A stretch of DNA of 64,000 bases, taken from positions 372,001-436,000 of the forward strand of contig NZ_AP014680.1 in the NCBI RefSeq assembly GCF_000829395.1. The letters are read 5' to 3'. This document shows positions 4,717 to 39,359 of the stretch, piece after piece. Numbering within the stretch: position 1 is the first letter of the stretch; each line of letters starts with the position of its first letter. Source of the stretch: Paucilactobacillus hokkaidonensis JCM 18461. GTDB taxonomy: Bacteria; Bacillota; Bacilli; Lactobacillales; Lactobacillaceae. Below the pieces are notes generated by a model. That model worked only from the letters and a program-made list of their open reading frames with translations. It had not been told where the DNA came from and made no database searches. The translations under genes and the position numbers were made by a program.

Positions 4717-5001
4717 AACATTAAAAATAGATTGGAAACGTTGAAGAGAAGAAGTAAAATTTGTTAAGACTAAAGAGACCCCCTAGCTTGGTGCGAACGG
4801 GGAGCTTGGCTAATTTGAAAGTAGTCTCCGAGAATTGAATGCAAACCGAGTGTTCAATGGGTGCACCCATTATCGTGCCATGGTATCGTCAGTAATGACT
4901 GTACCTGGTGAGATCTGTTTTGTGAAAGACAGATAAAATGAGGTGGTAACACGTGAAAACGTCCTTATTAGGCTTTGAGGCCTAGTAGGGACGTTTTTTT
5001 G
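4717..5001 (+). promoter_or_regulatory. T-box riboswitch leader (tRNA-sensing), no obvious target gene
   Basis: The leader holds the ordered parts of a T-box. Stem I is closed by GTTGAA (from 4740) and TTCAAT (near 4853) with an AGAGAAGAAGTA-type 5' strand. Stem III is ATCTGT/ACAGAT at 4913-4934. The T-box sequence AGGTGGTAACACG is at 4941-4953. An intrinsic terminator at 4958-5000 ends in seven T. The UGGU of the T-box should pair with a tRNA acceptor end having A as discriminator. The specifier region reads GAATGCAAACC, from which ATG (Met) or GCA (Ala) fit an A discriminator better than TGC (Cys), but I cannot fix the register by eye. No aminoacyl-tRNA synthetase or amino-acid gene follows; the next gene is 520 bp away. 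Confidence 0.82.
4958..5000 (+). terminator. T-box terminator hairpin
   Basis: AACGTCC...TTAGGC pairs with GCCTA...GGGACGTT around a TTTGA loop, followed by a run of T. Part of the 5' arm would be captured by the T-box sequence in the antiterminated form. Confidence 0.8.
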
Positions 5002-5134
5002 TTTGAAACGTGTTCGCTGAAGGCAGATGCTTAGGGCCAAGCCAGAAAAAACAATCAAGTAATTAAAAACCAACTACTTAATTGTTTTTTTCCAACTTAG
5101 CCTACAGCATCTATACGCCTTCGCTCATACTCTA
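5002..5134. repeat. Long intergenic hairpin repeat, copy 1
   Basis: The left arm TTTGAAACGTGTTCGC and the right end TTCGCTCATACTCTA match the conserved ends of other copies in this window. Inner arms pair: GAAGGC.AGATGCT with AGCATCT..ACGCCTTC, then TTAGG with CCTA, then an A/T-rich hairpin. It belongs to the same subtype as the 21488 copy (shared GCAGATG..TAGGGC.AAG interior). It follows directly on the T-box terminator. Confidence 0.75.
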
Positions 5135-5526: not shown

Positions 5527-6540
5527 ATGGAAATACGATTGAAACAAGCTATTTTGCACGTGGTGGATCGAAAACTTGGTGATCCAGTGATTTCACAAGT
5601 TGGATTGGATCTTACGAATACGTATATTCGCGATTATTTAACCAAAAAAATCGAAAAGTTGTCTTCAGAAAAAGTAAAAACAGGAACGCTGATACCAACA
5701 TCGCCTTTGGCGGAATTGATTAAAACTGGAAAACAAGATTTCACGAATATGAGCCAGCAAATGGTTGAAAAATGGTATGAAATTTACCAAACTAGTGAAG
5801 ATGCACCTAGTGCGGATGTGTTCGTCGTGTTATATGAGCAAGAGCAGAATGTAACATTGCACACTGCATTTCTGAAGGTCAACTATCATCAAGGTTACAC
5901 TCATCTAGTTAGTGCAAATGACGAAGGGCTGTTGGCCAATGAGTTAATTGTACACAAATCTATTTTGGCGGGTAAAACTCAAAAGGCGGATGAGGGCTTT
6001 CAGATTAATAATGAAGATCTAAGTTATGAATTGGAAGAAAAAAAGTATACTTTTTCTGGTGATCGACAATTCTATCTTTCCACCAAGGTAATTGAAAGTG
6101 AACCATTACCATCGCTGGAAGAAAACGTGAAAGTTGTTGCAAAAGCGGCTAAAAAAATTGGCAACAAGTTTGATGTACCTGATAGAGAAATAGTGGCTAG
6201 CGTCAAAGAGGCCATTCAAGAAAATGTTACAGAGCATAGTAGTCTGGATACACAACAAATAGCACAAAAGGTGTTTAAAGATAACCCAGCAGCCCAGACT
6301 GATTTTCAAGCAACGGTGGTTGAAAAGGGTTATGTCGATAAAGTGCCCATGTCGACAGAAGTTAAGCAAATTGCAACTAAAAAGTATGGTAAACAAAAGT
6401 TGAAGCTGTCCAACGGAATTGAATTGATCGTGCCATTGGATGTTTATCAAGACCCCAACTTGATTGAGTTTATTAATAATCCGGACGGCACAATTTCAGT
6501 AACCATTAAAAATGTTGAAGATGTAATTAGCCGATTATGA
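5527..6540 (+). CDS. Nucleoid-associated protein, YejK/NdpA-like
   Basis: 337 residues, close to the usual 330-340 of the 37-kDa nucleoid-associated protein family. Family-like features are the N-terminal ILHVVDRKLGDPVISQ segment with a following acidic/alkaline helical part, and the C-terminal LKLSNGIELIVPLDVY block with a final IKNVEDV strand. It is expected to be cytosolic and associated with DNA, although the biochemical role in Firmicutes is poorly defined. ATG at 5527 follows AAAGGATAGG. The gene is monocistronic: a T-box leader and repeat precede it and a terminator follows. It is the first gene after the orphan T-box, but it is not an expected T-box target. Confidence 0.72.
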   Translation: MEIRLKQAILHVVDRKLGDPVISQVGLDLTNTYIRDYLTKKIEKLSSEKVKTGTLIPTSPLAELIKTGKQDFTNMSQQMVEKWYEIYQTSEDAPSADVFVVLYEQEQNVTLHTAFLKVNYHQGYTHLVSANDEGLLANELIVHKSILAGKTQKADEGFQINNEDLSYELEEKKYTFSGDRQFYLSTKVIESEPLPSLEENVKVVAKAAKKIGNKFDVPDREIVASVKEAIQENVTEHSSLDTQQIAQKVFKDNPAAQTDFQATVVEKGYVDKVPMSTEVKQIATKKYGKQKLKLSNGIELIVPLDVYQDPNLIEFINNPDGTISVTIKNVEDVISRL

Positions 6541-21487: not shown

Positions 21488-21622
21488 GAGTTGTGTTCGC
21501 TGGGGCAGATGTCTAGGGCTAAGTTAGAAATCACAATCAATAAATCAAAAAGCAATTTATTAATCGTGATTTCTAACTTAGCCTACGACATCTATTCGCC
21601 CCTGCTCACATACTTTTTTTAG
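21488..21622. repeat. Long intergenic hairpin repeat, copy 3, also ispE terminator
   Basis: The arms GTGTTCGCTGGGGC.AGATGTC and GACATCT..CGCCCCTGCTCACAT pair, then CTAGGGCTAAGTTAGAAATCAC pairs with its near-complement ending at about 21585. T7 follows at 21616-21622. It shares its interior (GCAGATG..TAGGGC.AAG) with copy 1 at 5002. Confidence 0.78.
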
Positions 21623-21624
21623 TT

Positions 21625-21653
21625 GACACCGCTTCTCAAATTATGTATCCTTA
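21625..21653 (+). promoter_or_regulatory. Promoter of the cysteine operon
   Basis: TTGACA at 21625-21630 and TATCCT at 21648-21653, 17 bp apart. Transcription should begin near 21660, just before the leader-peptide ribosome site. Confidence 0.8.
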
Positions 21654-21679
21654 GATCAATCAAGTTGGAGGTTACTTTT

Positions 21680-21766
21680 ATGATTTTAGCACACACATAT
21701 ACTAACGTATGTTGTTGTGGATCGCGTCTTATGCGACCCACTAGTTGGTGTGCCAAAATTATGTAA
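21680..21766 (+). CDS. Cysteine-codon leader peptide (28 residues)
   Basis: ATG at 21680 has a perfect GGAGG (21667-21671) eight bases upstream. The frame reads MILAHTYTNVCCCGSRLM and continues for ten more residues to TAA at 21764. Codons 11-13 are TGT TGT TGT and codon 24 is another TGT: four Cys in 28, where cysteine is normally rare. It lies between the promoter and a terminator in front of three cysteine-biosynthesis genes. This is the arrangement of a peptide whose translation reports the supply of Cys-tRNA. It is too short for standard gene callers. Translation and regulation are inferred, not shown. Confidence 0.82.
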   Translation: MILAHTYTNVCCCGSRLMRPTSWCAKIM

Positions 21767-21840
21767 ACTTTGGCCACAATTAAATCGGGATAAATCGTAT
21801 AAGACGCAGATTCTAATATAGAATCCGCGTCTTTTTATTT
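21717..21840 (+). promoter_or_regulatory. Transcription attenuator of the cysteine operon
   Basis: Three mutually interfering structures are visible. Hairpin A: GTGG.TCGC (21717-21725) pairs with GCGA.CCAC (to 21741) and overlaps the third Cys codon. Hairpin B: GTG.GCCAAA (21748-21757) pairs with TTTGGCCAC (21769-21777) and contains the peptide's stop codon. Antiterminator: GCGTCTTAT at 21724-21732 is the exact complement of ATAAGACGC at 21799-21807, which includes half of the terminator's 5' arm. Ribosome position on the leader would therefore decide between antiterminator and terminator. The detailed order of events is inference. Confidence 0.75.
21802..21840 (+). terminator. Attenuator terminator before the cysteine operon
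   Basis: AGACGCAGATTCT pairs with AGAATCCGCGTCT (one internal mismatch) around AATAT, followed by CTTTTTATTT. The first cysteine gene starts 21 bases later. Confidence 0.88.
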
Positions 21841-21861
21841 ACCCACGAAAGGAAGATTGCA

Positions 21862-22773
21862 ATGTTAGTCAATAATGTATATGAATTAATCGGACACACA
21901 CCATTATTAAAATTAAAGATTGATACGCCTAATAATAGTCAAATTTACGCTAAATTAGAAATGAATAATCCAGGCGGAAGTGTCAAGGACCGGTTAGGGA
22001 TGGCGCTGATTGAACATGGAATAGAGATTAATGCGATTAAAGAAAAGACGACCATTATTGAACCAACTGCTGGTAATACAGGAATTGGGGTGGCATTAGC
22101 GGCACAAAAATATCATTTGCCAGTTAAATTGGTGGTGCCAGCAAAATTTAGTTTTGAAAAGCAGACTTTGATGAAGGCACTGGGAGCTGAAATTATTAAC
22201 ACGCCATCCGAAGCAGGAATTAAGGGCGCAATTCAAAAAGCTAAAGAGTTAGCCAGTGGTATTGAGAATTCGTATGTCCCGCTACAATTTGAAAACCCTG
22301 CTAATCCAGCCGTTTATCAACGGACGCTTGGTCCTGAGATTCTAGCGGATTTACCTAACCAAAAAATTGATGCATTTGTGGCCGGCGCTGGCAGTGGGGG
22401 AACTTTTGCTGGGACAGCCAAGGCACTTCAAGCAGCCTACTCCGAGATACATAAAGTTGTGGTTGAGCCAGAAGGATCAATTTTGAACGGTGGACAGCCA
22501 CATGCTCATAAAACTGAAGGCATCGGCGTTGAGTTTATTCCACCATTTTTTGAGGATGTAACCATTACCGATACCAAAACAATCAGTGATGATGATGCAT
22601 TTCATTATGTTAAATGGTTGGCCCAAAACGAAGGCCTGTTTGTCGGTAGTTCTAGCGGAGCTGCTTTGGCCGCTAGTTTGCAAATTGCTGAAAAATTGCC
22701 AACCAATTCGACGATTGTCACCATTTTTCCAGATTCCAGTGAACGTTATTTAAGCGAAGGTATTTACAATTAA
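21862..22773 (+). CDS. Cystathionine beta-synthase / cysteine synthase-type PLP enzyme
   Basis: 303 residues, fold type II PLP enzyme. It would join homocysteine to (O-acetyl)serine to make cystathionine, or sulfide to O-acetylserine to make cysteine. The PLP lysine is K42 in GGSVKDR. Other motifs are [12 protein letters not shown], the phosphate loop [15 protein letters not shown] and VGSSSGAA. The segment [11 protein letters not shown] recalls the MccA/YrhA and lactic-acid-bacterial Cbs branch rather than classical CysK, which favours the transsulfuration role, as does the lyase gene next door. The start has AAAGGAAG upstream. First gene of a three-gene operon under the Cys-codon leader. 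Confidence 0.88.
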
Positions 22774-22777
22774 TTAG

Positions 22778-23929
<1,152 letters not shown>

Positions 23930-23966
23930 TTGGATGCTAACTTTCGTCATAAAAGGGGTAATATAA

Positions 23967-24491
23967 ATGTTTTCCGCCGCCAAATACATCGTGAAAATTG
24001 ATCCTGCTGCTAAAAGTATGTGGGAAGTTATCTTTACTTACTCAGGCTTTCAGGCACTGGCTTTTTATCGGGTTAGTCATCGACTATATCAGGCTAAACG
24101 GTACTTTTGGGCTGCATTAGTTGCACATCTAGGTAAAAAAATGACACAAGTTGAGATTCATCCTGGAGCTAAGATTGGTAACCATGTTTTTATTGATCAT
24201 GGCACAGGTGTGGTTATTGGCGAAACAGCGATTGTTGGCAATTACGTGACCATTTTGCATGGAGTGACGTTAGGATCACGTTATAACAATGATGGACCAC
24301 GACATCCGCGGATTAGCGACCATGTATTAGTTGGTGCGAATGCGCTTTTACTAGGGCCAATAACTGTTGGATCTTACGCCAAAGTGGGGGCAGGAAGCGT
24401 TGTATTACATGATGTCCCTAAAAATGCTACCATAGTTGGTAATCCAGGTAGAGTTGTTAATCGAGAAATAAAATTGGTAGTACGGGGATGA
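23967..24491 (+). CDS. cysE: Serine O-acetyltransferase
   Basis: 174 residues, a short Gram-positive CysE. It acetylates serine with acetyl-CoA to give O-acetylserine, the acceptor for the first enzyme of this operon. A helical N-terminus (AKSMWEVIFTYSGFQALAFYRVSHRL) is followed by a left-handed beta-helix of hexapeptide repeats with VEIHPGAKIGNHVFIDHGTG, the catalytic-site HGVTLG and the terminal VVLHDVPKNATIVGNPGR. AAGGGG lies upstream of the start. cbs-cgl-cysE clusters are known in lactic acid bacteria and have been described as horizontally transferred. Confidence 0.95.
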   Translation: MFSAAKYIVKIDPAAKSMWEVIFTYSGFQALAFYRVSHRLYQAKRYFWAALVAHLGKKMTQVEIHPGAKIGNHVFIDHGTGVVIGETAIVGNYVTILHGVTLGSRYNNDGPRHPRISDHVLVGANALLLGPITVGSYAKVGAGSVVLHDVPKNATIVGNPGRVVNREIKLVVRG

Positions 24492-39261: not shown

Positions 39262-39359
39262 TGTGTTGCTAAAAATGTAAATTCATGGTAATCTATTGTG
39301 GTTAACGATAAATAACTATGTCTCAGTCAATGATTCATGGCAAAGGAGCGTATTAAACT

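Follow-up and report, generated by a model that had tools for sequence, protein, structure and literature searches.

A polycysteine leader peptide and a probable ribosome-paced attenuator in front of cysteine operons of Lactobacillales

The 64,000-nt stretch analysed here (the window; positions 372,001 to 436,000 of the forward strand of NZ_AP014680.1) belongs to Paucilactobacillus hokkaidonensis JCM 18461 and contains a three-gene operon (cysK/cbs-like, cgl and cysE; 21862–24491), which is preceded by a leader comprising a short open reading frame (ORF) with three consecutive cysteine codons, followed by three competing RNA helices. We read the leader as an attenuator of transcription, paced by the ribosome, that gauges cysteine supply through charged tRNA-Cys, with a probability of about 0.88. 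Ribosome-mediated attenuators of the trp and his type are known from Proteobacteria, and a preliminary description of the leader had proposed the same logic, applied to cysteine. The proposal is supported by a tandem-Cys leader ORF and a terminator at nearly all related loci, by compensatory changes in the helices, and by the published response of an orthologous operon. Because nearly all the related genes examined in lactobacilli and their order are preceded by this arrangement, the leader very probably turns cysteine genes on at cysteine shortage.

Direct reading of the leader verified the 28-codon frame, its ribosome site, and the TGT codons at positions 11–13 and 24 (Table 1). The separate hairpin overlapping the third Cys codon, hereafter P1, is also present, and the intrinsic terminator proposed before cysK/cbs was recovered by a custom hairpin scan (AAGACGCAGATTCTAATATAGAATCCGCGTCTT, then TTTATTT; −16.7 kcal/mol). 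A simple terminator scan did not list 21801–21833, because the stem contains an internal mismatch. The pairing of GCGTCTTAT (21724–21732) with ATAAGACGC (21799–21807) is exact, as had been claimed, but these 9 nt understate the length of the antiterminator helix. Specifically, duplex computation on this locus (L001) gives a core of 13 bp with one G-U pair (21724–21736 with 21795–21807), extended by CCC/GGG (21737–21739 with 21787–21789) and by GGATC/GATTC (21719–21723 with 21809–21813). The structure of the leader is beyond chance, with a fold z of −5.4 and 0 of 200 shuffles equally stable, and we regard its conservation among relatives as decisive. The TTGACA-17-TATCCT promoter of the preliminary description is likewise present, but its motif is not enriched: the 5-kb region contains 15 such sites versus 15.7 expected from shuffles, which makes the motif weak evidence when taken by itself. 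The nearest relatives, judged by eye, carry TTGACA with a TATTCT-like second box at the equivalent place.

Table 1. Features of the leader and of the operon behind it (positions in the window)
Feature	Position	Strand	Details
Sigma-A type promoter candidate	21623–21651	+	TTGACA-17-TATCCT; motif match
Shine-Dalgarno (SD) sequence of leader ORF	21665–21671	+	TTGGAGG; read directly
Leader ORF	21680–21766	+	28 codons plus stop, MILAHTYTNVCCCGSRLMRPTSWCAKIM; ATG 21680–21682, TAA 21764–21766; read directly
Regulatory Cys codons 11–13	21710–21718	+	TGT TGT TGT; CC, CCC or CCCC in relatives
P1 protector (anti-antiterminator) hairpin	21717–21741	+	5′ arm starts inside third Cys codon
Antiterminator, 5′ strand	21719–21739	+	Core 21724–21736
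Fourth Cys codon (codon 24)	21749–21751	+	TGT; absent from some relatives
Antiterminator, 3′ strand	21787–21813	+	Core 21795–21807; 21801–21813 common to terminator 5′ arm
Intrinsic terminator	21801–21840	+	Stem 21801–21833 (one mismatch), U-rich tract to 21840; hairpin scan
cysK/cbs-like pyridoxal phosphate enzyme, first gene of operon	21862–22773	+	TIGR01139, 313.3 bits, under cut-off of 350.95
Cystathionine gamma-lyase/synthase-like gene (cgl/ctl)	22790–23929	+	NF004821, 597.4 bits, under cut-off of 642
Serine O-acetyltransferase gene cysE	23967–24491	+	TIGR01172, 213.4 bits, above cut-off of 210.65

Related loci were picked solely by homology to the first gene of the operon, and their upstream regions were scanned regardless of leaders. 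The homologues were drawn from 60 relatives, 330 genomes of the family and 345 of the order, three sets that overlap in part, with three named contigs and three plasmids in addition; of the 90 places listed for the gene in Lactobacillaceae at E ≤ 3.2e-84, 89 were used, a fragment in G278 being left out. In a scan of 99 loci, which demanded an ATG start and used the SD for ranking only, 97 have a tandem-Cys ORF of ≤60 codons that is separated from the gene by a terminator. The two misses are L017 and L164, the latter kept in the denominator with a contig that ends 112 nt upstream; L114 and L116, whose 300-nt upstream regions are identical, come from two genomes and were counted twice. Among 49 further loci outside Lactobacillaceae, for which the SD was part of the criterion and ATG, GTG or TTG starts were accepted, 47 have a tandem-Cys leader ORF with a ribosome site and a terminator, and the two misses, L316 and L317, are from the same genus (g45) as L017. 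With three loci present twice (L031/L148, L032/L159 and L033/L340) counted once, the pooled total is 141 of 145 distinct loci, covering six family-level groups of Lactobacillales (f1, f2, f3, f7, f8 and f9). Loss of the frame or of its Cys codons in relatives, which the preliminary description had named as an outcome that would speak against it, is therefore not the pattern found.

Under a strict criterion (SD, start codon and CC within 450 nt), the leader is found at 92 of the 99 loci versus 59 of 1980 dinucleotide shuffles (3.0%). In controls, it was found before 2 of 27 and 0 of 7 distant cysK genes of related genomes (together 2 of 34; 7 of the loci L020–L030 were used, L020–L023 being left out) and before 4 of 77 homologues from other taxa. 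The distant chromosomal cysK of G270 (L314; taken as L. casei ATCC 393) is without such a leader. The first gene itself is patchy, occurring at E ≤ 1e-95 in 64 of the 345 order genomes. In genus g20, seven loci (L123, L126–L130 and L147) have an extra stretch between the leader terminator and the gene, with long palindromes in some, which places the start of the leader ORF 346–511 nt upstream.

The three helices were compared in alignment A1, which holds 30 leaders of 32 selected (a further alignment, A2, holds 34 of 42); the invariance of the Cys codons in A1 is partly by construction, because its rows were picked by a CCC[GE] motif, with four similar rows added. In A1, P1 is paired in 95.4% of cells and has 20 double-change cells, versus 4.7 in shuffles. 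The antiterminator (18 pairs) is paired in 87.6% of cells, versus 33.7–40.5% when slid, with 43 double-change cells versus 14.3, and the terminator is paired in 92.5%, with 30 versus 9.3; none of 500 shuffles equals the observed double-change count for any of the three. Pairing energies, P1 folds and ribosome-masking tests were computed for 61 representatives of the 97 loci. In particular, the antiterminator strands pair at −25.3 kcal/mol with their own partner versus −16.9 kcal/mol across species, the own partner's mean rank is 6.8 and 6.2 of 60 (30 at random), and the helix beats shuffles at z < −2 in 50 of the 61. The local fold of P1 reaches z < −2 in 46 representatives. In 59 of the 61, the 5′ arm of this hairpin begins somewhere in the last two codons of the Cys run, and in 35 it does so precisely 2 nt ahead of the end of that run, as measured on a folded piece that starts 6 nt upstream of the same end. 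This position gives the geometry required for a Cys-stalled ribosome to open P1.

Published data for Lacticaseibacillus paracasei FAM18149 provide an expression record for an orthologous operon. According to the portions of PMC6004538 drawn on here, cysK2-ctl1-cysE2 is expressed more highly without cysteine than without methionine (log2 2.9–3.2; quantification cycle for ctl1, 21.4 versus 25.7), and the operon has high coverage of its 5′ untranslated region, a rho-independent terminator in that region, no T-box, and a mechanism "yet to be discovered". The plasmid locus of this operon (L212) carries the leader MSQSMFNAINCCCRTTRFWRCSAC, and its terminator AAGGGCGCGAAAATTCTGGATTTCAGAATTTCGCGCCCTT, which ends about 78 nt ahead of cysK2, fits the motif AAGGGCGCGAAA-N16-TTTCGCGCCCTT published in PMC6004538. 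The same source assumes the chromosomal cysE-cysK operon of L. paracasei to be constitutive, with log2 of 1.1–1.2 by RNA-seq and no significant difference for cysK by quantitative reverse-transcription PCR. The leader DNA matches 32 Lacticaseibacillus plasmids, and equally many plasmids of the genus carry the gene. Whether L. paracasei grows on methionine without cysteine is decided by the gene cluster, as stated in the part of PMC6200037 drawn on here.

We infer the stalling, the ribosome footprint (of usual size) and the order of the folding events as follows. With cysteine plentiful, the ribosome would clear codons 11–13 and end at the stop codon (21764), P1 (21717–21741) would refold behind it and sequester the antiterminator strand, the terminator (21801–21833) would form, and transcription would halt about 25 bases before cysK. 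With cysteine scarce, the ribosome would wait at codons 11–12 with its leading edge masking the 5′ arm of P1 (to about 21722–21725), and the freed 21724–21739 would pair with 21787–21807, blocking the terminator and allowing cysK-cgl-cysE to be transcribed. In trp-type terms, segments 1 to 4 would correspond to 21717–21725, 21724–21741, 21787–21815 and 21819–21833, and a ribosome of the usual footprint stalled at codon 11 or 12 would cover segment 1 and leave segment 2 free.

Several results weigh against this mechanism. When the full leader is folded at equilibrium with a masking ribosome, the terminator prevails on average in all states across the 61 representatives, with mean probabilities of 0.93 for free RNA, 0.83 for a ribosome stalled at the first Cys codon (Cys1) and 0.94 for one at the stop codon; the probability at Cys1 is lower than at the stop in 38 of 61 and higher in 3, a shift of the right sign and small size. 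On RNA cut short of the terminator 3′ arm, a stall at Cys1 gives more antiterminator than a ribosome at the stop in 22 of 61 and less in 34, and placing the ribosome six codons upstream raises the antiterminator above its Cys1 level in 39 and lowers it in 11. We therefore set masked-ribosome equilibrium folding aside as proof of the switch, the terminator shift being indecisive and the truncated-RNA version giving no support. Furthermore, passage from P1 to the antiterminator faces a low barrier by our estimate, with a median of 4.1 kcal/mol, so that P1 is unsupported as a kinetic trap. Since equilibrium folding fails to reproduce the switch by itself, the switch must depend on kinetics or pausing.

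The comparative evidence has its adverse side as well. The double-change counts are inflated, because the aligned rows are related, and a coarser count of pairs changed on both sides is reached by 27 of 500 shuffles for the antiterminator and by 55 of 500 for P1. In the geometry used, no significant antiterminator was found in 11 of the 61 representatives, four of them from outside Lactobacillaceae. The same holds for 21 of a second set of 33 leaders from outside Lactobacillaceae (taken from 46; 12 significant), mainly in family f3, to which the two named Enterococcus loci belong and in which most leaders gave no trustworthy antiterminator in that geometry. An SD-like motif is lacking ahead of 5 of the 97 chosen leader ORFs. 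Loci L017, L316 and L317 of genus g45 (family f2) have the gene and, by our scans, no Cys leader; a switch to another regulation is possible there.

The palindrome in front of the gene could instead be a DNA operator for a repressor, a reading that might also be given to a motif in lactobacilli that PMC6004538 reports from Liu et al. 2012, with the leader ORF being incidental. This explanation is highly improbable: at L212 the palindrome is a terminator stem followed by a U tract, and the palindrome varies by lineage with compensatory changes and co-varies with a strand well upstream, neither of which an operator needs. The terminator might also be under the control of an aptamer or of tRNA binding to the leader (as a T-box, S-box, SMK or unknown riboswitch), which would make the Cys codons irrelevant. 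In favour of this are 32 T-box matches at E ≤ 0.001 in the P. hokkaidonensis genome (10 over the cut-off) and, in L. paracasei, a cysteine T-box controlling a transporter operon as well as T-boxes in front of methionine genes (PMC6004538, in the portions drawn on here). In the leader, by contrast, there is no Rfam match at the gathering threshold, the 18 matches found around it at E up to 10 are all far under gathering scores with no T-box or S-adenosylmethionine (SAM) riboswitch among them, and the tandem Cys codons after the start codon persist where the RNA structures of the lineages differ. We give control by an aptamer or by tRNA binding very little credence.

An arrest peptide would require yet another reading of the Cys run, in which the Cys-rich peptide itself senses thiol, metal or redox state and the nascent chain, not a shortage of charged tRNA-Cys, sets the stalling. 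The Cys runs are conserved, and some leaders have further clusters, CCCxCC or a C-terminal CSAC, as such a peptide might. The residues flanking the run vary widely among lineages, unlike those of known arrest peptides, and the downstream genes serve cysteine biosynthesis and cystine-type uptake, which makes a sensing peptide quite unlikely.

The leader is not confined to the cysK/cbs operon. When 301 Lactobacillaceae genomes were searched with R1, a covariance model of the leader, 78 gave matches at E up to 0.01; the weakest of these are doubtful. The P. hokkaidonensis genome has a single R1 match, at the cysK/cbs-cgl-cysE operon, and no match to a model of another subtype (R2). Twenty R1 matches at places other than the cysK/cbs operon, with E between 1.4e-17 and 9.2e-6, were examined, and a tandem-Cys leader ORF is found at 19, L282 having MCLCG instead; this presence is not independent, because R1 includes the Cys-codon sequence. 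The genes behind these leaders are cgl without a transporter; cgl and behind it a transporter of permease, ATPase and binding protein (at L266 only about 1.1 kb after cgl); the transporter alone (L267, L268 and L282); or a metA-like gene with a distant cysK (L283). The best matches of the L264 transporter proteins are cystine ATP-binding cassette (ABC) families, under the cut-offs. At L272, the cgl behind the leader seems broken, and the ABC transporter genes after it are open.

On balance, we lean towards a broader view in which the Cys-run ORF is the conserved core: cysteine supply in many Lactobacillales would be read by translating ribosomes on short polycysteine ORFs, for a regulon of cysK/cbs-cgl-cysE, cgl, cystine-type ABC transporter and metA-cysK genes, and the RNA switch would have been rebuilt several times, with different antiterminators in Lactobacillaceae, in the f2/f7-type and in the enterococcal f3 leaders.

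In architecture, the leader resembles the trp- and his-type attenuators, with which it shares a tandem-codon leader ORF, mutually exclusive hairpins and an intrinsic terminator, and from which it differs in its amino acid, in its occurrence in Lactobacillales and in preceding several cysteine operons. Specifically, it has a translatable ORF with a ribosome site (an SD-like motif in 92 of 97 loci, and 47 of 49), tandem codons for the operon's own amino acid, whether produced or taken up (Cys; 97 of 99 and 47 of 49), an intrinsic terminator between this ORF and the first gene, and a protector hairpin overlapping the regulatory codons. An antiterminator excluding the terminator is found for the P. 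hokkaidonensis leader and its relatives (50 of 61) and for 12 of 33 leaders of other types.

Related systems have been described. His leader peptides before hisZ/hisS* in bacilli were presented as new for Firmicutes (PMC2965389, in the portion drawn on here). The uORFC-8-2 motif, as described in the passages of PMC8632094 used here, is a tandem-Cys attenuator predicted upstream of cysS in Rhodobacterales (145 examples), and it shares with our leader an AUG upstream ORF with two tandem Cys codons (usually at positions 14–15), a terminator, a first stem containing the Cys codons, and proposed ribosome-mediated attenuation. It differs in being alphaproteobacterial and confined to cysS, whereas the genes here are cysK/cbs, cgl, ABC transporter and metA genes of Lactobacillales; compared by description, our leader lies before a cysK/cbs-like gene and not upstream of cysS. 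In Actinobacteria, leader peptides with Cys runs are predicted before cys genes, including cbs in Bifidobacterium longum; the passages of PMC1262725 used here give no conserved terminator hairpin for them and suggest Rho, in contrast to the intrinsic terminator found here. The mycobacterial polycysteine ORFs (Canestrari 2020, cited in PMC13236596) are leaderless, going by the title, while ours is SD-led.

With the cysteine T-box (RF00230), the leader shares a 5′ position, a terminator/antiterminator choice and cysteine as the signal, which would be read by the ribosome and not by uncharged tRNA binding to the RNA. No covariance-model match to RF00230 or to the SAM riboswitches (S-box and SMK) was found in the leader, and Rfam searches of the whole window, and of the leader at E up to 10, gave nothing plausible. 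Among the titles and abstracts listed by our searches of the open-licence literature, none describes a Cys leader peptide for lactobacilli or for other members of Lactobacillales. We file the leader as a new RNA family, ribosome-paced attenuation itself being already known.

Between ispE and the leader promoter lies a palindrome (21507–21593) with 39-nt arms that are 87% complementary. Its family has 47 matches in the genome at 70–100% identity, some places being counted on both strands and some copies standing in tandem about 130 bases apart, and it looks like an intergenic element of the REP/BIME kind (repetitive extragenic palindromes/bacterial interspersed mosaic elements). Another copy, at 5022–5119 (C1:377022-377119), follows by about 50 nt a T-box leader at 4732–4969 (97.3 bits), which has no ORF of ≥120 codons close behind it, the next starting at 5527. 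Copies also lie about 70–80 nt downstream of the T-boxes at C1:837923 and C1:1516456. Elsewhere in the window, an L31-Firmicutes ribosomal protein leader is matched at 39316–39348 (37 bits).

In L. paracasei, the attenuator is a concrete candidate mechanism for an operon whose control PMC6004538, in the portions drawn on here, describes as "yet to be discovered", with a palindrome listed as a potential regulatory motif re-read as a terminator, and the gene cluster travels on plasmids together with its leader. Control by leader peptides would thereby join the T-boxes for which this group of bacteria is known. If the RNA switch has indeed been rebuilt around a conserved Cys-run ORF, ribosome-paced attenuation would work across an order of Firmicutes, the phylum in which, from work on Bacillus subtilis, transcription is widely thought to outrun translation. 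The leader occurs in six family-level groups, and as an attenuator it would need the ribosome to keep pace with RNA polymerase; coupling in Lactobacillales therefore becomes directly testable.
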